From: Holophagae bacterium
GTDB taxonomy: Bacteria > Acidobacteriota > Holophagae > Acanthopleuribacterales > Acanthopleuribacteraceae
Direction: 5' to 3'
Length of the DNA: 64,000 bases
Assembly (NCBI GenBank): GCA_029263455.1
Contig: JAJCXM010000032.1
Coordinates: 1-64,000 of the forward strand
The notes under the pieces were generated by a model that had not been told where the DNA came from, ran no database searches, and saw nothing but the letters and a program-made list of their open reading frames with translations. Position numbers and translations under genes: made by a program. This document shows positions 422 to 10,225 of the stretch, piece after piece. Each line of letters begins with the position of its first letter. Position 1 is the first letter of the stretch.

Positions 422-1306
422 ATGGAGAAGGACATTTCACTTGACCAGTTCATGACGTACTTACGTTTTGAACGTCGTGTTTCTACACATACGCTAGATG
501 CCTACCAACGAGATCTAATGGCTTTGGCAGATTTCCTAGATGTTCCTCTACTAAACGCAAGGACTGAGCAGATAGCATCCTATATTCGCTCTCTTGCCGT
601 AGACCAGAAAGCGTCATCTCAGTCTCGGAAAATGAGCGCTTTGAGGCACTTCTATAAATATCATCTGAAACTGGGGCATATCCATGTTCATCCCATGGAA
701 TCGATTTCCAGGCCAAAAAAGGTAAGATCTTTACCCAAAACTTTAGCTCTGGCTCAGGTGGAATTGCTTGTCAACGCGCCAGACTTGGGCCAAACACTGG
801 GTATCCGAGATAAGAGCATGATCGAATTAATGTACGCAACAGGTCTGCGCGTGTCCGAATTGATTTCATTACGATTCTCTCAACTGCGCCTAGAAGCTGG
901 TTTTGTGCTTGTTTATGGGAAGGGCGACAAGGAACGAGTCGTGCCCTTAGGTCGAGCGGCGTTGGCATGTTTACAGGCATATCTAAAGCAAGCGCGACCA
1001 CTCCTCTTAGACAAACCCGATGACGTGGTCTTCTTGAGCCGTTTTGGTTCTGCCATGAGTCGTCAAGCATTTTGGAAAATTATCAAGAAATACGCACTTA
1101 AAGTCGGGATTGAACGAAAGCTTGTTTCTCCCCATGTGATTCGGCACTCCTTCGCAACCCACCTACTCAATCACGGGGCCGATTTGCGAGCCATTCAAAT
1201 GATGTTAGGTCACTCAGACTTAAGCACGACCCAGATCTATACTGCGGTATCAAGGGAACGTTTGAAAAAGATCCATCAAAGTCATCACCCGCTTGAGTTT
1301 AGTTAG
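422..1306 (+). CDS. xerD: Tyrosine recombinase XerD-like
   Basis: Site-specific tyrosine recombinase. With a XerC partner, this family resolves chromosome dimers at dif during division. The 294 residues match the usual XerC/XerD length. An N-terminal SAM-like core-binding domain (about 5-90) precedes the catalytic domain (about 108-290). The full active site is visible: Arg143 in ATGLRVSE, Lys167 in YGKGDKER, His238 and Arg241 in HVIRH, His264 in LGHSD, and the nucleophile Tyr273. The gene stands alone and converges on the downstream membrane-protein gene, overlapping it by 8 bp. XerD fits better than XerC or an integrase because of the compact size and absence of integrase-type extensions, but the two Xer paralogues are hard to separate by eye. 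The ATG at 422 has no clear ribosome site. Confidence 0.88.
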   Translation: MEKDISLDQFMTYLRFERRVSTHTLDAYQRDLMALADFLDVPLLNARTEQIASYIRSLAVDQKASSQSRKMSALRHFYKYHLKLGHIHVHPMESISRPKKVRSLPKTLALAQVELLVNAPDLGQTLGIRDKSMIELMYATGLRVSELISLRFSQLRLEAGFVLVYGKGDKERVVPLGRAALACLQAYLKQARPLLLDKPDDVVFLSRFGSAMSRQAFWKIIKKYALKVGIERKLVSPHVIRHSFATHLLNHGADLRAIQMMLGHSDLSTTQIYTAVSRERLKKIHQSHHPLEFS

Positions 1307-3251
1307 TCAAAGATTGTCGTTTTGAGTCAATCGTAATTTTCATTAGGGTCAAAAGCTCTTGGTTCTCGGCGACAAGCTTTTCGGCTCCGGCCTGTTGACC
1401 GCGCTTAACAAAATCACTTGGCAAACGAAAAACTTGATTTGCCAATGCTAATTGCAAGTATTCAGGTAGGTGACGATATTCTTCATCCGTCAACATGATT
1501 GCAACGTTTTCAGGCGGAGATTCGTACGGCGAAAACCGCTGGAAAACAATCATTCCGCGATCAACGGCAATAGGATACCAAGAGACGTGGTCATGGAAAA
1601 CACTTGTCCATCCATTGTTCCATACAGGTATGATGGCGACATGGCAGTTGTATTTTAGGAATAAATCGGGGTTGCGTTCAGATAAGGCACGGTCATGAAG
1701 GTCCAATGTTTCCCCGGCGTGCGGTGAAAAGAAACCGTCGATCATGACCTTTTTTCTCCCTGTCCATTGCAACATAAGATAGCCGCCTATGCCGATAGTA
1801 TTCATGGCGGGTTGGTCCAAAAACTTGTCCAAAATGAAATCGGGTACTTCTCGACTAAAGTAAGGTGCACGCGTCAGGCTAAGCCGGTGTCCAGGGTATA
1901 GGCCAATCAGTCGCGGTAAACCCATATTTGCAGCTATGACTGTGCCAAAGGCGAACAAGGCTAACGGACGGAATATTTTTGCCGGACGAGAACAAAACCA
2001 ATGGTTACGGCCTAGGATAAATACTGACAAGATACCGAGGTAACCAATAGTTCGAACATAGCCGAGCCCAATGACCCAGATACCCAGCCACGCAAAAGCA
2101 AGTGGATTCCTTTCTTCCTCCTTCCATAGTCGCCACCCCGCTAGGGCCGCGCATCCCAGCGACAACCATACGTAAATGTCACCCAAGTAAAAGAATGGCG
2201 ATTGAAAATCAAGTGATCCAAATTGATTGACAGATGGATCCCAAAGAGTGCTGTTGAATTGATGTATGAGACGCTCGAGTAGATTGAGTTGTGACAACGG
2301 AACGGGTCCGGCTGGGTCTCGAGCGATGTGGTCGCTGTTTGTGATGAAATAGGTTGCCCATACGACTTGACCAGCAAAAAACGCTACCATGATCGATTTC
2401 CAGTTTAGCCGCGGGCTGTTTAATGTCTTTATCGCAATTGAGGAACCAATCGTTAAGGAAAACAAGAATGTTAACGATGCAATTATTGCAACCCACAAGC
2501 CGATTCCATGGGTAAAAAATGATAAAAACGACATGGCCACGTGACTGCCCCATGAACTAAAAACCAAGGCAACGATCCATGCAAAAGGAATGTTAAGTGT
2601 GTGTTTACGGTTGGAAAGCATGTCAGGTTGCTCCCAGATTGTGCCGCAAAAGAGGGCGCCCATGATAAAAAGGCCTAACAGATACGAACCGTGGAGATTA
2701 GACCAAACAACGATTATTATGGTCATCATCCACCAAGATTTCATCTTATATGCCCAGCGTTGGTTGTCCGTACACGCAATAATTAGAGCCACGCCCAACA
2801 AACTAAATGCAGCGTTTCTGACTATCTGTTGTTGATAGGAACAGCCCAAGAACATGAAACTTAGGACAATCGCTAGTGACCGCTCACGAGCAGTGGGTTT
2901 TGCAATTTTGACTACGGCTATCCATGTCAGGAGCAAAATAAAAAGAGTCAGGAACTTGTCTCCGCCTGCAGAGAATAGTCCATAAAAGATCGAGTCGCCA
3001 AGCCAAGTATGGCGAAGATCGTGATGTGCATTTGCATTGACTGGCGTGAAGTATAAGGTCGTTAGATCGGGAAGTGCACGCTGTTTTACGATTTGATGAC
3101 CAATTTCGATATGCCACCAAATATCCACATCGTTGATTGGCCTTATGACAAAACCGACCGCCATTACTAGTAACAAAGCGGATGCGATGCGATTTCGTCT
3201 CGACCAAAGCCGATTATTTCTTGTATCGTCGCCCATAGCTGGGCTATTCAA
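1299..3251 (-). CDS. Polytopic inner-membrane protein, GT-C-like
   Basis: Large integral membrane protein of 645-650 residues with about ten or more hydrophobic helices and a soluble C-terminal domain of roughly 180 residues. After the first helix comes an acidic motif, DVDIWWHIEIG, and later NLHGSYLLG. An acidic loop after TM1 and such Trp/His clusters are typical of GT-C-fold lipid-linked sugar transferases (PMT/ArnT-like), so a membrane glycosyltransferase is a reasonable guess. No specific family was recognised. The first possible start is TTG at 3251; an ATG at 3236 is equally plausible, and neither has a good ribosome site. It is divergent from the exported-protein cluster and not in an obvious operon. 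Confidence 0.7.
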   Translation of the reverse strand: MNSPAMGDDTRNNRLWSRRNRIASALLLVMAVGFVIRPINDVDIWWHIEIGHQIVKQRALPDLTTLYFTPVNANAHHDLRHTWLGDSIFYGLFSAGGDKFLTLFILLLTWIAVVKIAKPTARERSLAIVLSFMFLGCSYQQQIVRNAAFSLLGVALIIACTDNQRWAYKMKSWWMMTIIIVVWSNLHGSYLLGLFIMGALFCGTIWEQPDMLSNRKHTLNIPFAWIVALVFSSWGSHVAMSFLSFFTHGIGLWVAIIASLTFLFSLTIGSSIAIKTLNSPRLNWKSIMVAFFAGQVVWATYFITNSDHIARDPAGPVPLSQLNLLERLIHQFNSTLWDPSVNQFGSLDFQSPFFYLGDIYVWLSLGCAALAGWRLWKEEERNPLAFAWLGIWVIGLGYVRTIGYLGILSVFILGRNHWFCSRPAKIFRPLALFAFGTVIAANMGLPRLIGLYPGHRLSLTRAPYFSREVPDFILDKFLDQPAMNTIGIGGYLMLQWTGRKKVMIDGFFSPHAGETLDLHDRALSERNPDLFLKYNCHVAIIPVWNNGWTSVFHDHVSWYPIAVDRGMIVFQRFSPYESPPENVAIMLTDEEYRHLPEYLQLALANQVFRLPSDFVKRGQQAGAEKLVAENQELLTLMKITIDSKRQSLTN

Positions 3252-3464
3252 CCATGGAAGCTGATATAATTAACGATGAATTTTGAACTAACCACTCTTA
3301 CGGAACGTGACTTGCGTAACGATTTTTTTGGTGTAATTCATGCTAGCCTTTCGCTTCGACGGGCATAAACGCAGCGCCAGTTTCGAGAATTCGTTTGATC
3401 CAAACCGTTCTCAGTTGGCGTTTGTGTGGACTGTGAGCGAAAAATTCCAGAAGAGGATTCAAAA

Positions 3465-6380
3465 ATGAGACCTGTGCTTAATGATCACTTTCGGGCCCAC
3501 AAACGCGTTAACGGCTGTGGGGTCGTTTTATGCCTCATGGGATTCCTTTTATCACCTGCCGTGGCGCAAAGTGATGTCTTGACACTTAACGGTGGGAGTT
3601 TAGCCGCTGGCGAAACAGGTGTGTTCCCGATTTTTTTGCAAGATGTTTCGGGTTCTGGAATTGACACGGGCACCGAGAATGTTGGTGCTATTCGCATTAG
3701 AATGACTGTACCTGCCAACCTAGTCAATGATGGACTCATCAGACCGGCTGGATTATTGGCCAGCTTCCCAAATATTGTTGTCGTGAGTAGTCCTGGCGAT
3801 GTATTTAACCCTGCGACCAACGAATTTGATTGGTTTATTGTTTTCTCAAGCGCGCCTCCGTTCAATTTGGATGCATCGTCACCGGGTGATTTGATAGCGG
3901 AGTTGGAGTTGACTGCTTCTGGCTCAGCAAGTGGCCAAACTATTAGCTTTTCACCTCATGGCGAGGACACATTGGTACAAAGTGAATTAGGCGAAACGGT
4001 GAATACTATCGCCTCAGGCAAGTTGATCGGAAATTTACAATCGATTTCTGTCACTCAGACGAGCGGAGGCAACCCTGTCGTCAATTCCTTTGCGGCTTCG
4101 CCACCTTCAATCGTTACGGGCGGATCTAGCACGCTTTCTTGGGATGTTTCTGACGCAGACTCGGTCGTTATTGATCAGGGGATTGGCACAGTCTCATCAT
4201 CCGGCACGTTTGTGGTTTCGCCCAACGTTACGACCCTCTATACATTGACTGCCACCAATGGGAATGGCCAAACTCAACGTTCAACAACGGTCGTGGTTTC
4301 AAGCGATATCGTACCGCCAACGATCAATTTTTTTCGCGTAAGTCCAACATCCATTAGTCCAGGCCAAACAGCCGAATTGGAATGGAGTGTCTCCAATTCA
4401 AATGAAGTCGCCATCGACCAGAGTATTGGCGTCGTGTCAGCAGCGGGGACGCATGACGTGCAACCCGTGGTAACCACGACCTATAAATTGACTGCGACCA
4501 ATGCCTTTGGGTCCAGTACCGCCAACGCGACAGTCACTGTGGTTACCGGCGTGCGTATTGATAGTTTTACAGGTACACCAAACGCTATTCGCATTGGCGA
4601 GAAAGTGACCTTGGCTTGGGAAACAACGAACGCGGTCACAGTAACCTTGAATCCAGGTAATATGACCGTAGACCCTAGTGGGTCGTTAGATGTTTTTCCA
4701 GCGACGTCCGCCGAATACATTCTTCGTGCTACGGGCAGCCAAGGCCAAAACACATCTGCGGTTGTACAAATAACGGTCTTTAATACGGATATTGAACTGA
4801 CAGTGAGCACGTCATCCATTGAGTTGGGAGAGGACTTAGTTAGCTCTTCCTTCGATTTAACCGCCGTCAACATCGCTTCTGTTGATTGGCATGTCGTCAA
4901 AAAGCCAGCTTGGGCGACGCTGAATCCGCCTGACGGCCAAGTCGGCTCAATTCCTACGCGCATCAGTGTTTCCGCAGATCGCTCAGATATGTATCCAGCG
5001 GAGTTTAAGGAAGGCACAATTGAAATCGCAGCAACAGGTGTGCCTTCGGTAACGCTTGAAGTGAGCGTCGCAAAGCGAGAACAGCCGCTAAATGGGGCGA
5101 TGTTACTATTCCCTAACGCGGTCGTGGATGATGATCACGAAAGTGTGATCCGAGTCGTTAACGGTGAAAACGCCACCGGCAAACTGGACATCCAAATATT
5201 TAATCAACTGGGCGAGCTTGAGAACGTCATCAGGAATCTTCATTTTCCGCCTTTTGGTTCCTACCAGCGAACACTGCCGGAAATGGCAACCACGCGCGGT
5301 TGGGTCGTGGTGACTGTAAATTATTCGGATCAAGCAAGTGGTCCACGTATCGTGCATGGCTGTTTAGTCACACGTACCTTGGATGGACAGGAAATTGTGG
5401 CGACAACACCTTCGAGAAAATCATCCGGCAAACTTTTTGTGCCCCATATTGCCAAAGACCCAAGTTTCTATACGGAAGCATCGGCCGTCAACCTGAGTCC
5501 TGACACCATGTTGGATTTTTCCTCGCAGCAAGTTGGGACCTTAATGGTGGACGCAGTGGATTCTGGAGAGCAATCGAGTTTCGATTTTCGTGAGTTGATG
5601 GGCGGAGATATTCTAGGTCCGGGGTGGGGCGAGTTAGAGTTAGATAGTGACACGCCGCGACTGGGAGGCATGGAAGTCTTTGGTCGCAGTAAATCAACCG
5701 GCCTACGTCAATCGGTTGGCGTGGGTATTGACGGCGAAACCGCTAATCAAATTATCTTTTCACATATCGCAGCCGATATCGTCACCTTCTGGACGGGCGT
5801 TGTCTTGATTAATACGTCGGGTCAGGAATCAGAGGTCACCATTGAGTCGTTTGATAGTACCGGTGCCGGCACGGTGATCGTCGAAAACTTTGGGCCATTT
5901 GAAAAACGCTCCTATTTAGTGACTGGCGACCAATTGGCCTTTGGTACTGATTCGTCCTGGGTGAGAGCGACCTCCAACGCGCCGCTGGTGGGTTACGAAC
6001 TATTCGGGACCTACGATGATCGGTTTGCAGGTTTCGAAGGCGTTCGTGAACTCTCGGAAGATCTGTTTTTCCCGCACCTAGAGCAAACGGTGACTACCGG
6101 TGGTTGGACAGGTTTGGCGGCCGTCAATCCTGGGTCGATCCAGGCCAATTTAACCATCGAAGTTTATAGCCGCTTGGGTGTGCTTAAAGACACCTTGTCG
6201 TCGCAACTGGGCGCTAAGCAAAAATTAGTGGCTTTGGTTAGTACCCTTTTCCCCAATACAAGCTTTGAACGCGGTGATTGGGTTCTGATGCACTCGGATC
6301 AGCCGATTGCTGGCTTTGAACTTTTTGGTTTTGGTCAATCGACCTTAGCAGCGATCCTAGCGGCTACGCCTTTGCCATAA
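3465..6380 (+). CDS. Exported modular protein: cohesin-like domain plus three Ig-like repeats
   Basis: Exported 971-residue protein. The ATG at 3465 is chosen over an upstream GTG because GAAGAGG lies 8 nt before it and it starts a signal peptide ending near VAQS. Residues about 37-190 resemble a cohesin-like beta sandwich (valine/threonine-rich strands, closing SxGDLIAELELTA). Three bacterial Ig-like repeats follow at about 206-278, 286-360 and 365-439, each with a (S/T)P..I..G....L.W core and a Y.L.AT(N/G) end. A BACON-like stretch comes next, then three or four loosely repeated beta modules with FPH, W...(V/L)..(I/V)N and G(Y/F)ELFG signatures. Function is unknown; extracellular adhesion or matrix display is inferred. 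It is the first of three exported-protein genes on this strand. No sorting signal was seen at the C-terminus. Confidence 0.85.
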   Translation: MRPVLNDHFRAHKRVNGCGVVLCLMGFLLSPAVAQSDVLTLNGGSLAAGETGVFPIFLQDVSGSGIDTGTENVGAIRIRMTVPANLVNDGLIRPAGLLASFPNIVVVSSPGDVFNPATNEFDWFIVFSSAPPFNLDASSPGDLIAELELTASGSASGQTISFSPHGEDTLVQSELGETVNTIASGKLIGNLQSISVTQTSGGNPVVNSFAASPPSIVTGGSSTLSWDVSDADSVVIDQGIGTVSSSGTFVVSPNVTTLYTLTATNGNGQTQRSTTVVVSSDIVPPTINFFRVSPTSISPGQTAELEWSVSNSNEVAIDQSIGVVSAAGTHDVQPVVTTTYKLTATNAFGSSTANATVTVVTGVRIDSFTGTPNAIRIGEKVTLAWETTNAVTVTLNPGNMTVDPSGSLDVFPATSAEYILRATGSQGQNTSAVVQITVFNTDIELTVSTSSIELGEDLVSSSFDLTAVNIASVDWHVVKKPAWATLNPPDGQVGSIPTRISVSADRSDMYPAEFKEGTIEIAATGVPSVTLEVSVAKREQPLNGAMLLFPNAVVDDDHESVIRVVNGENATGKLDIQIFNQLGELENVIRNLHFPPFGSYQRTLPEMATTRGWVVVTVNYSDQASGPRIVHGCLVTRTLDGQEIVATTPSRKSSGKLFVPHIAKDPSFYTEASAVNLSPDTMLDFSSQQVGTLMVDAVDSGEQSSFDFRELMGGDILGPGWGELELDSDTPRLGGMEVFGRSKSTGLRQSVGVGIDGETANQIIFSHIAADIVTFWTGVVLINTSGQESEVTIESFDSTGAGTVIVENFGPFEKRSYLVTGDQLAFGTDSSWVRATSNAPLVGYELFGTYDDRFAGFEGVRELSEDLFFPHLEQTVTTGGWTGLAAVNPGSIQANLTIEVYSRLGVLKDTLSSQLGAKQKLVALVSTLFPNTSFERGDWVLMHSDQPIAGFELFGFGQSTLAAILAATPLP

Positions 6381-6398
6381 AAAAGTGAGAGCTTTTTT
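6379..6398 (+). terminator. Weak hairpin after the Ig-repeat gene
   Basis: AAAAAAG (6379-6385) pairs with CTTTTTT (6392-6398) around a 6-nt loop, starting in the stop codon. The stem is almost all A-T, so it could at most attenuate transcription into the next gene. Confidence 0.3.
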
Positions 6399-6470
6399 AA
6401 TGTAGGACGTCTAATATTTAATGTACGAATACAGAATTGAGAATTTTCTGAATATGAAAGGTAGGTCAAC

Positions 6471-7721
6471 ATGAATAAGTTGATAGGCGCACTATGCGTG
6501 TGCGTTTTGAGTGTTGCATCATTTGCACAATTGTCTATGAGATTTGATCCGGTCGCCCACGCGGGCTTAATTACCGGAAATGCATTGGACGTTTCTGGGT
6601 TTGCCAATGGCGATCCTATCTACGTTGAGGTATTACTAGAGAATTTCGAATTCACGCTCGCAGGCTTTGAGTTTGAACTTCGGTTTCCGCCCTATATGAC
6701 GGCTATGAGTGTGGTTGATAACGATTGGAACACCGGAACAGGGAATGTGTTTACGGCCGGTTCCTTTATTTCCGCGCTGTCCGTTCAACAGCTCCCTGCC
6801 GCTGCTGACGGAAGTCTTATTGCGAATAATAACGTCACCCTCATCAACGGCGAAGGCCGTGTGAGAGTAGGTGTTTTGTTTACGGTTACAGGAGATCGTC
6901 CTGTTGGATCTGTAGGCACGCCAAATGCTGGTGGCGTGATTGGTCGCCTCTGTTTCGCTTTGGATAACTCTGCCTGTGATTCTTCAGGTGAAACTATTTC
7001 CTTGACCATGAGTGGCGCAACAGCCGAGATTTTTGCGGACGAGACTGCTACTCAGGTGGAAATGGGTACAACTAACTTGACGGTTGTCTTGAATGGTGCG
7101 GCCACAATTCCTCGTGCCGATGGTAACCATAGCGGTACTCGAACCTTTGCCGACGTAGTTCCTGCAGCACGGGCAGCTCTTCCAGGCGCTGGACAATGTG
7201 ATGCGGTTGTGAACGCTATGTACGACTGGTGTACGGATGCCGGCGGTGAGTTCTTGTCAACTTTTGATGGCAATTGTGACGGAACTATTAGTTTCACCGA
7301 TGTGGTTATTAACGCGAGATTGGCATTACCGGGCGGATTTAACCGTACGCAGTTCAAGAAACTTGAATACTTTGAAGTCCATGAGAATGGTTCCTTCGTG
7401 GTCAATAGTGAAGGTCGTCAGGGTGTTGCAACTCAGATGGTACTGAACATGCGTGATCTCAAACTTAGTGAACCAACCATTAGTCCAAAAGCACGGGAAG
7501 CCGGTTGGGCCATAGTGAGTGATACGGTTGGTGAAAACTTGGTCTATATCTTGTTCAACGCCAGCATGAAGTCGTTTGACATCCCTGCCGTGACCGTTGC
7601 TTACGAAATTAGCGGTAAAAACGCGGGCATCGCGATGGCTGATGTCGACTATCAAGCTTCTGATTTGCAACTTTTCAAATATACGCCTTTGGTAGAAGTA
7701 TTTGAATCTGTTAGTAAATAA
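6471..7721 (+). CDS. Exported protein with cohesin-like domain and paired dockerin-like calcium loops
   Basis: Exported protein of 416 residues. Signal peptide MNKLIGALCVCVLSVASFAQ; GGTAGGT lies just upstream of the ATG. Residues about 22-205 form a beta-rich region like a cohesin domain (LAGFEFELRF, GRVRVGVLFTVTG, IGRLCFAL). Two matching segments follow at 217-239 and 266-288, each reading DGN..(S/D)GT..F.DVV..AR.ALPG. The second fits the 12-residue dockerin/EF-hand loop with Asp266, Asn268, Asp270, Ser274 and Asp277; the first has Ser in place of the third ligand. Type I dockerins carry two such loops and bind cohesins. A cohesin-like and a dockerin-like region on one chain suggests head-to-tail assembly or binding to the neighbouring proteins, which is inference. 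The C-terminal ~125 residues are unassigned. Confidence 0.85.
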   Translation: MNKLIGALCVCVLSVASFAQLSMRFDPVAHAGLITGNALDVSGFANGDPIYVEVLLENFEFTLAGFEFELRFPPYMTAMSVVDNDWNTGTGNVFTAGSFISALSVQQLPAAADGSLIANNNVTLINGEGRVRVGVLFTVTGDRPVGSVGTPNAGGVIGRLCFALDNSACDSSGETISLTMSGATAEIFADETATQVEMGTTNLTVVLNGAATIPRADGNHSGTRTFADVVPAARAALPGAGQCDAVVNAMYDWCTDAGGEFLSTFDGNCDGTISFTDVVINARLALPGGFNRTQFKKLEYFEVHENGSFVVNSEGRQGVATQMVLNMRDLKLSEPTISPKAREAGWAIVSDTVGENLVYILFNASMKSFDIPAVTVAYEISGKNAGIAMADVDYQASDLQLFKYTPLVEVFESVSK

Positions 7722-7760
7722 GTGTCAAAAAACAGTTTTTTGAGCTAATTTCAAAAAAAA

Positions 7761-7793
7761 AGGGTGTGCCTGGCAAATAGGCACGCCTTTTTT
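7761..7793 (+). terminator. Rho-independent terminator after the dockerin-like gene
   Basis: GGGTGTGCCT and AGGCACGCCT pair across a short loop (eight matched positions, one of them a G-U) and run into six T. An A-rich tract precedes the stem, so it could work on both strands. Confidence 0.8.
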
Positions 7794-7878
7794 CTTGACC
7801 CTTACAAGCAACGATCGTAAACTTGCACAGTAAACGTGTACTCACAACCCAAGAAAAATGGACAGAGGGTGGATTGAT

Positions 7879-10173
7879 ATGAATAAATTACTTGGCAAAA
7901 TCGGGATGATAGCGGTTTGCCTAAGCGGACTTTCTTTGTTTGGCCAATCGCTAAGCATGCGTACAGAGACTTTTAACGTTACCCCGCAGGGGAGCGAGTA
8001 CTATATTCAGACAGGTGTTTTTATGACCCTGACTGGAATCACAAATACAACCGGTTTCTCCGGAATCAACGCGACACTTACCTACGATGCTGGGGACAAT
8101 ACGCGATTGATCGGGGCTCCGGCACTTCAGGGGGTCATCGACCCTCAACCGGAGACGGGTTTACAAAATCCGGCCGACCCTTTAGCGGGCACGGCCACTC
8201 CTGGGACAACTACTAATAACGTGATTGAGAACGGGGTTCCTGCAAACGGCTTTATGCCAGTTGTGGGAACAGACTTGACGAACTTTATGGCTAGTGAGGT
8301 TCTTCCGAACCAATCTGGAACCATTATTTTGGCGTCGGCTGACTTCCAAGCCATGATGTTTGCGGCTCAAAATGGGGTTGAACTCCTTATTGGTGTCATC
8401 GAATTCCGTGTTGATGCGGCTGCAGGAAATGGCTGGGCCATTGACGTAGCCTTCGACAATACAATCGTTGATAACAACGCTGTTACTCACGGTACAGATC
8501 CGACACTGCAAGCGGGTACAACTGACGGCCAAGTGGTTGTCTTCGGCGCGCCTAACTGCACCGGTGCAACGGTTGCCGACGCACTTGGTGGCGGAGCGCC
8601 TGGGGTCAACGTCAATATCGACTACCTTGATCCAACGGCTGGTGGTGTTGGTGGCGACCTCGACTTTGTGATTAACCACGACGCTGCCGATCGAATTTCC
8701 TGGAGTGGCTCGGATGGCTCTTCCGGAATGGTTCCAGCGGTTGCTATGTCAACCATGTTCTCGCTGAATACACAAGGGGACGCGACACCATCGACTGCGG
8801 TTGCTTCGGTAACCTATACACTGACACCTGAAACGGAATTCCCGATCGGCTCGGGTACATTCAACGGTGGCACCCCTTGTATGCTGACTGTTAACTGGAA
8901 TGCACCAACGTGCACGATCGTCTTTGACTCAATTCCAATCATCGGCATGTCAACGAATCTTGATGTGACACTCGGAAACGTTCTCTACGACGGTGGCAAT
9001 ACACGTTTCGGTCAGATCACAACAACATCTGCTAACGGTGGCTTCCCTGTAGATTTGGATGCGCCAAGTAGTGTTGCTGGCAGTGTGTTGACTTACAACG
9101 ACGCCTTTAACTTTGCGGCGGTTGTTGCAGGGGATGTGGGCACTTATACTGTGTCAGGCGCTTCTGGACCTGGTGGTCCGGTAACGGGTTGTTCAACCTT
9201 CCTTGGTTTGGCTTGTCCTACCTTCAATGCCACGCAGTGTGACGCAGCCAACATCAACGCTGGCATGCTTGCTCAAAACGGTGGACCTCTGAGTGTTGCT
9301 TTGGACGCGAACGATGTGGCCGATTGGGAAGTTGACTATAACGGCACAAACGACGCTGGTATAGCTCCAGCGGCGACACCTCACTTGCACACGAACCCTG
9401 TCTCCGCCTTGGACGTCGACTTCTTGATGACGGTTAACGGCTTTGACTCGATGGGTGTGGCATGTGATGCCACGCAACTCTGTGCGTTGGACTTCGAAGC
9501 ACCTACGTGTGACACCTTCACGCAAAACCCAGACTCAAGTGTCACTCCAGTGAATCCGGGCACAATGATCATGCTCTCTATCAACACCACCAACGCTCTG
9601 TCGGTGACTTATGATGATGGCACGGGTCCTTTGGCCATGGTTTCCACCAGCGGTGTTCCTGAAACAACCTATATGGACACTTGGACGGCCACCTACGCCG
9701 CATTCTTCCCAACCACCATCACGGTGACTGTGACGAACGCGGACGGTGAAACCACTACCTGTACAACAGATATCGGTGTGAATTGTAATGCATCGATTCT
9801 AAGTGTAGGTTCGCCTGGTTCAACTGGCACAGTAACGATTCAAGGTATTGGCGCTGTTGCACCTGGCCTTGACTACGACATCTACTACTCAAATGACTGT
9901 AGCTTAGCCATTAGCTCGGACTTGGCTGGTTTGGCAACATTTGCCGGATCAATCAATCTGACGGGTGCTGGCGCTGTTCAAAATAGCGGTCCTGCTGGTC
10001 ATATGATTCAACCTGATGTGTGTTACTACGTGACATGTAATGGTTCAACCATCATTCTGGATGTGTTCGGTCGTCGTACCGTACCAACTCTGGGTGAGTG
10101 GGGACTGATGGCATTCGCTCTACTTCTCATGGCGGCAGGTGTGGTTCACATGCGCCGTCGACGCGAAGTCTAA
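7879..10173 (+). CDS. Large exported IPTL-CTERM surface protein
   Basis: Exported protein of 764 residues. The start is placed at ATG 7879, with GAGGGTGG about 6 nt upstream, giving a signal peptide MNKLLGKIGMIAVCLSGLSL. The first ~200 residues look like another cohesin-like domain. The central ~500 residues are Thr/Ala/Gly/Asp-rich and Cys-containing, with repeated beta segments and no family recognised. The C-terminus has the tripartite sorting pattern: VPTLGEWG motif, hydrophobic helix, then RRRREV. This matches the IPTL-CTERM class, which is known to be processed by exosortase-type enzymes (XrtH). No exosortase is in the window, so the processing enzyme must lie elsewhere. Codon use is richer in GC-ending codons than in the flanking hypotheticals, as expected for an abundant surface protein. 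A strong terminator follows directly. Confidence 0.88.
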   Translation: MNKLLGKIGMIAVCLSGLSLFGQSLSMRTETFNVTPQGSEYYIQTGVFMTLTGITNTTGFSGINATLTYDAGDNTRLIGAPALQGVIDPQPETGLQNPADPLAGTATPGTTTNNVIENGVPANGFMPVVGTDLTNFMASEVLPNQSGTIILASADFQAMMFAAQNGVELLIGVIEFRVDAAAGNGWAIDVAFDNTIVDNNAVTHGTDPTLQAGTTDGQVVVFGAPNCTGATVADALGGGAPGVNVNIDYLDPTAGGVGGDLDFVINHDAADRISWSGSDGSSGMVPAVAMSTMFSLNTQGDATPSTAVASVTYTLTPETEFPIGSGTFNGGTPCMLTVNWNAPTCTIVFDSIPIIGMSTNLDVTLGNVLYDGGNTRFGQITTTSANGGFPVDLDAPSSVAGSVLTYNDAFNFAAVVAGDVGTYTVSGASGPGGPVTGCSTFLGLACPTFNATQCDAANINAGMLAQNGGPLSVALDANDVADWEVDYNGTNDAGIAPAATPHLHTNPVSALDVDFLMTVNGFDSMGVACDATQLCALDFEAPTCDTFTQNPDSSVTPVNPGTMIMLSINTTNALSVTYDDGTGPLAMVSTSGVPETTYMDTWTATYAAFFPTTITVTVTNADGETTTCTTDIGVNCNASILSVGSPGSTGTVTIQGIGAVAPGLDYDIYYSNDCSLAISSDLAGLATFAGSINLTGAGAVQNSGPAGHMIQPDVCYYVTCNGSTIILDVFGRRTVPTLGEWGLMAFALLLMAAGVVHMRRRREV

Positions 10174-10194: not shown

Positions 10195-10225
10195 AAGGGC
10201 CCCGAGCAATCGGGGCCCTTTTTTT
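10195..10225 (+). terminator. Strong Rho-independent terminator
   Basis: A perfect 11-bp stem, AAGGGCCCCGA (10195-10205) with TCGGGGCCCTT (10210-10220), has a GCAA tetraloop and is followed by a T run. It ends the IPTL-CTERM transcript. Confidence 0.93.

Follow-up and report, generated by a model that had tools for sequence, protein, structure and literature searches.

Three adjacent genes of a Holophagae bacterium, here named A, B and C, probably encode a cohesin-dockerin scaffold of the cell surface that is not a cellulosome, with B as its connector and C as its probable anchor. The genes lie in a window of 64,000 nucleotides, the whole stretch of DNA analysed, on a contig (C32) that belongs to a 6.2-Mb draft genome. 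A non-cellulosomal scaffold had been proposed in a preliminary description of the locus, and it is supported by the folds of the modules, by gene order kept in seven of seven genomes of the family, by an exosortase in every one of those genomes and by correlated change of the cohesin and dockerin modules; the accompanying bridge from B to an anchored protein is a step that we infer.

A gene trio conserved across Acanthopleuribacteraceae

A, B and C are three long, adjacent open reading frames on the plus strand, and all start with a signal of the Sec type as read from the sequence; the three consecutive exported proteins of the preliminary description exist as described (Table 1). In a synteny comparison the order A-B-C was kept in all seven Acanthopleuribacteraceae genomes, and an ortholog of B was present in each. 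We denote the window's genome G000, a second genome of the same genus G001, and five further genomes of the same family G002 to G006, of which G003 is Sulfidibacter corallicola and G006 is Acanthopleuribacter pedis. The same cluster is found in S. corallicola M133, in A. pedis KCTC 12899 and in metagenome genomes of Acidobacteriota/Holophagae, and the family that hosts it consists of marine, often animal-associated Acidobacteriota. This conserved synteny across the family is new here; the main text of a comparative-genomics paper on Acanthopleuribacteraceae makes no mention of cohesin, dockerin, IPTL or exosortase (PMC8841776). When a profile of B was run against a 297-genome sample of the phylum, the roughly 290 genomes from outside the family gave no convincing match, one hit being a fragment with stops. 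A search of genome contigs with B alone returned no related locus, and the alignment of A recovered the genomes named above.

The gap between A and B measures 8 to 90 bases across the seven genomes, and A and B are probably co-transcribed, with C apart. A strong terminator, likewise a new observation, separates C from B, and C is therefore probably its own transcription unit; a single three-gene operon as the default was rejected on account of this terminator after B. Among the relatives, hairpins between B and C are strong in G002, G005 and G006 and weaker in G003, and none was found in G001 or G004. The preliminary description contained neither this terminator nor the Ig-like repeats and BACON domain of A, nor the further beta-rich domain of B.

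Table 1. Features of the A-B-C locus in window coordinates, followed by B paralogs at other loci of the family
Feature	Position	Strand	Basis
Gene A	3465..6380	+	ORF; Pfam; orthologs in 7/7 family genomes
A N-terminal cohesin-like domain (aa 36-200)	3570..4064	+	hhalign profile match
A Ig-like repeats (aa 206-440)	4080..4784	+	I-set matches in 5/6 orthologs
A BACON_2 domain (aa 444-516)	4794..5012	+	Pfam 25.1 bits, cut-off 25
Gene B	6471..7721	+	Exported 416-aa cohesin-dockerin protein; ORF; orthologs
B cohesin domain (aa 20-210)	6528..7100	+	AF2 model; PDB fold matches; profile
B dockerin repeat 1 (aa 217-239)	7119..7187	+	Loop DGNHSGTRTFAD then helix; kept in orthologs
B dockerin repeat 2 (aa 266-288)	7266..7334	+	Loop DGNCDGTISFTD; profile matches PDB dockerins
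B C-terminal beta-rich domain (aa 295-400), no family assigned	7353..7670	+	Mostly strands, pLDDT up to 80
Intrinsic terminator between B and C	7757..7793	+	16-bp hairpin with T-run, -23.1 kcal/mol, z -6.3
Promoter-like site before C	7795..7823	+	TTGACC-17-TAAACT, consensus match; number of such sites not above chance
Gene C	7858..10173	+	ORF; orthologs in 7/7 family genomes
C N-terminal cohesin domain (aa 29-232)	7942..8553	+	A. pedis ortholog model; Foldseek
C IPTL-CTERM sorting signal	10081..10164	+	TIGR04174 27.8 bits (cut-off 20.5); PF18203 22.9 (cut-off 20.8)
Intrinsic terminator after C	10195..10220	+	11-bp stem and T-run; -23.3 kcal/mol, z -5.1
B paralogs between LRR gene and RHS-repeat gene	Sulfidibacter L088 814-1995; A. 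pedis L090 850-2022
B paralogs between LRR gene and RHS-repeat gene, G005	L089 853-2022; L092 847-2016; L096 853-2025

Cohesin-like, dockerin-like and sorting modules

Protein A (971 aa, ATG at 3465) is laid out as a cohesin-like domain followed by Ig-like repeats, a BACON_2 domain and C-terminal beta repeats. Protein C (771 aa, ATG at 7858, with a second in-frame ATG at 7879) has a cohesin domain, Cys-bearing beta domains and a terminal IPTL-CTERM. By sequence none of A, B or C matched the cohesin family PF00963 over the Pfam cut-off, and fold comparison was needed because the three N-terminal domains, run as profiles against PDB sequences, found no cohesin. For B, an AF2 model built from six sequences (mean pLDDT 49, a low confidence) gave residues 20-210 a fold whose best 47 PDB matches are all cohesins (top Z 11.5, rmsd 2.6 over 137 residues), and the profile of this domain with paralogs added (13 sequences) scored 72.8% against cohesins (E 3e-5), making a cohesin fold well supported as modelled. 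For C, a cohesin is likewise well supported from a model of the A. pedis ortholog (14 sequences, pLDDT 84.9), to which the domain in the window is 22% identical: cohesins, or modules resembling them, fill the top 46 PDB rows for this model (best Z 12.7), and Foldseek gave a cohesin probability of 1.00 (E 1.1e-5). Identity of the window's C domain to its orthologs is 18-26%. The domain of A was compared by hhalign with a profile built from 18 PF00963 cohesins of Acanthopleuribacteraceae and matched at 94.2% (E 1.1e-7 over 104 columns), against 0.4% for the reversed profile and 0.1-1.8% for other domains of A and C, which supports a cohesin-like assignment. The cohesin-like N-termini noticed earlier are thus borne out by fold in B, by the fold of the A. 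pedis ortholog in C and by profile comparison in A. Set against one another by hhalign, the three cohesin domains gave no significant match, nor did the C-terminal domain of B give a significant profile match to cohesins. In keeping with the earlier remark that no carbohydrase domain was seen, profile searches of A, B and C found neither a carbohydrase domain nor a CBM above the cut-off.

The two segments of B that had been read as dockerin calcium loops hold up well. Both 12-residue loops fit D-x-[ND]-x-[DNS]-G-x5-D, and each is followed by a helix (226-234 and 275-284 in the low-confidence model). Across the aligned B orthologs some of the loops vary, and Asp217, Asp228, Asp266, Asn268, Cys269 and Asp277, calcium ligands among them, are invariant. 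A profile of the region (80 residues, 7 orthologs) retrieved the solved dockerins 2ccl_B (E 3.4e-4), 1ohz_B (0.002) and 5lxv_B (0.0025) from the PDB, together with, at the same level, two entries of the eukaryotic guanylyl cyclase-activating protein, an EF-hand protein. The Pfam model Dockerin_1 (PF00404) matched the G005 ortholog at 24.0 bits (cut-off 22.9) and gave no match to the copy in the window. Taken together, dockerin homology of this region of B is well supported. Positions 10-21 of a dockerin repeat face the cohesin. At these positions the two repeats of one protein share 51% mean identity, as compared with 26% for the same repeat between orthologs, and pairing the first repeat with the second of its own protein beats nearly all other pairings (permutation p 0.001); for the comparison over 21 positions an insert in the second loop of G004 was trimmed manually, which leaves positions 10-21 unaffected. 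Internal symmetry of this kind marks dual-binding dockerins, which bind a cohesin in two orientations (PMC5429695). The two halves of the B dockerin thus change together, as in symmetric dual-mode dockerins, an observation that is new here.

The IPTL-CTERM reported at the end of C lies above the curated cut-offs of both Pfam and NCBIfam, and by analogy C is likely to be anchored in the envelope through it. The genome holds 14 IPTL-CTERM C-termini over cut-off, C included. A search for XrtH, which had been suggested, did find one XrtH-like exosortase (C14:1360-1947; Cys motif NNCNG), with a score of 77.9 bits that falls under the XrtH cut-off of 86; against the general exosortase model TIGR04178 it scored 48.6 (cut-off 23). 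Each of the seven family genomes has one such enzyme, at 63-78 bits, and because all seven stay below the cut-off the exosortase of the family is taken as an XrtH-like branch. The arrangement is like IPTL-CTERM/exosortase H sorting (TIGR04174, TIGR04177) in the signal on C, the 13 other places in the genome and the single XrtH-like enzyme, and unlike exosortase H in the score of that enzyme. Just downstream of the exosortase gene, on the minus strand (L056 779-1363), a 194-aa membrane-like protein is encoded that has no NCBIfam match and is possibly an exosortase partner.

B paralogs and C-like cohesins also occur elsewhere in these genomes, so cohesin and dockerin modules are re-used in several exported proteins. 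The B paralogs with LRR and RHS neighbours combine a cohesin-like and a dockerin-like part, and those of G000 (L039/L087) stand between a repeated-domain gene and an RHS gene. At L039 (G000:C15) the paralog (2325-3584) precedes the gene of an RHS-type protein (3541-8448), which carries a dockerin-like EF pair (residues 1183-1220) within its repeat region. At L057 (7644-10571) and L058 (8477-11419) a C-like cohesin is joined to seven Ig domains, and a dockerin-like EF pair replaces the terminal IPTL-CTERM; a C paralog in G001 (L055 8114-11002) carries a tandem duplication of the N-terminal cohesin. G000, G001 and A. pedis (L073, L072, L070) also encode a secretin-like protein, about 770 aa long, with a C-terminal cohesin over the Pfam cut-off, and in G000 it is the sole PF00963 match.

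Correlated change of the modules

Between G000 and G001, identity is 32% in the A cohesin, 25-36% in B and 25% in the C cohesin, as against 57-61% in the rest of A, 58-71% in the rest of C and 53-68% in most flanking genes. In A the change is abrupt and coincides with the end of the cohesin, at about residue 200; in C it lies around residue 220. Trees were run under a mixture model and a simpler model, and were limited to seven genomes with long branches. The pairs G000+G002 and G001+G004 had been noticed from the identities before testing, and the genus pair G000+G001 was given beforehand. The A cohesin places G000 with G002, a member of another genus (support 100/100), and rejects G000+G001 (p 2e-4, mixture model). 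The tree of B does the same (97/95; G000+G001 rejected at p 9e-4, mixture model) and also pairs G001 with G004 (97/96). The C cohesin tree is weakly resolved: G001+G004 recurs (90/97, not decisive), and under the mixture model G000+G002 is without support and G000+G001 is not rejected (p 0.27). In contrast, the rest of A and of C unites G000 with G001 (100/100) and rejects G000+G002 (p 7e-4) as well as other pairings. In these trees the A cohesin, the whole of B and, with less clarity, the C cohesin share a history at odds with that of the remainder of A and C, which is likewise new here.

Because the 2.3 kb of A that lie between its cohesin and B follow the genus, and the A cohesin and B do not, these two share a history unlike that of the sequence between them. 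The joint change of two separated segments is evolutionary evidence for interaction of these modules, with coupled selection on fitting parts as the simplest reading, and on this evolutionary ground a cohesin-dockerin partnership within A, B and C is supported. Replacement and fast divergence of the modules may both have occurred. The membrane-protein gene that adjoins A (1299-3251, minus strand) shares 29% identity with the corresponding gene of G001. The stretch of replacement or rapid change may reach past the start of A.

A putative surface scaffold and its alternatives

In the arrangement that we favour, B would be the connector, with its calcium-binding dockerin as the plug and the cohesins of A, B and C as the sockets. 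An XrtH-like exosortase would sort C and anchor it in the envelope via the IPTL-CTERM, leaving the C cohesin as a docking site; B would dock on C, and its own cohesin would receive either a further B, which would build a chain, or some other protein with a dockerin. A, which probably shares a transcript with B, would add a cohesin on a long Ig/BACON arm that contacts other cells or matrix. The exact topology of this chain is a tentative proposal: with one dockerin and three cohesins B can dock on C, on A or on another B, and these three kinds of docking look alike here. Binding, anchoring, chain order and an adhesive role are all what we infer from the modules. An adhesive or structural role would fit proteins in which no domain points to carbohydrate degradation and in which Ig-like, BACON and Cys-bearing repeats are present.

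Cellulosomes, as in Clostridium thermocellum, Acetivibrio and Ruminococcus flavefaciens, share with A-B-C the cohesin fold, an internally symmetric dockerin with two calcium loops and an anchoring member. B, as a connector that carries both cohesin and dockerin, resembles the adaptor scaffoldins of R. flavefaciens. A-B-C differs in that it lacks carbohydrase and CBM domains, has one cohesin per protein, uses exosortase-type sorting, carries its dockerin in the middle of B and is hosted by Acidobacteriota; with no carbohydrase domains over cut-off and a single cohesin each, none in tandem, an identity as a cellulosome was rejected. Cohesin and dockerin modules are widespread outside cellulosomes, where their function is described as not known (PMC5244752). 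Such modules have been described from organisms without cellulosomes (2009, cited in PMC2930009 and PMC5244752), and from these A-B-C stands apart as a conserved three-gene set that has a sorting signal and for which evolution gives evidence of a partnership.

Other readings of the cluster deserve to be weighed against this scaffold. The three cohesins might receive dockerins encoded elsewhere, and the B dockerin bind a cohesin elsewhere, in which case A, B and C would be functional neighbours that do not bind each other. One to five other dockerin matches, and other cohesins, do occur per genome outside the cluster, and G003 and G006 encode proteins in which a C-like cohesin is combined with a terminal dockerin-like pair; but the A cohesin and B changed class jointly and the rest of A did not, for which a direct fit is the simplest explanation, and we consider this reading unlikely. 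Adhesins at exposed sites often evolve rapidly and undergo exchange of whole modules. The domains could be cohesin-like in fold alone, that is, generic beta-sandwich modules for adhesion or sugar binding, with the EF-hand pair as a calcium-stabilised linker and with the fast correlated change coming from phage, predator or host pressure on exposed tips. The neighbouring membrane-protein gene, which differs between G000 and G001 to a like degree, would suit such an account, to which we nevertheless give little credence, since the two-fold symmetry of the dockerin is kept while its sequence differs between genomes, as in dual-mode dockerins (PMC5429695).

A reading in which the B dockerin folds back onto the cohesin of its own chain, making B a closed monomer or dimer and no connector, is highly improbable. 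Both modules lie in one chain and changed together, and a symmetric dockerin could also support domain-swapped dimers, yet fold-back leaves unexplained why the A cohesin follows the same class, and few residues would separate the B cohesin from the dockerin. A bolder reading extends the favoured scaffold into a self-assembling surface polymer whose plug and socket classes are interchangeable and were swapped as a matched set across the two separated segments, the classes being G000/G002, G001/G004 and G003/G005/G006; we regard it as distinctly unlikely. If it were true, cells that share a class could interlock, or could escape cross-assembly with cells of other classes, which would amount to a kind of compatibility system.

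As for the probable scaffold itself, the cluster offers a compact and conserved case, present in the culturable A. pedis and S. corallicola, in which a single plug stands beside three sockets and a probable anchor. Its natural class variants predict which plug and socket pairs should bind and which should not. Since the function of non-cellulosomal cohesin-dockerin systems is described as open (PMC5244752), A-B-C would be a useful example for it in this family.
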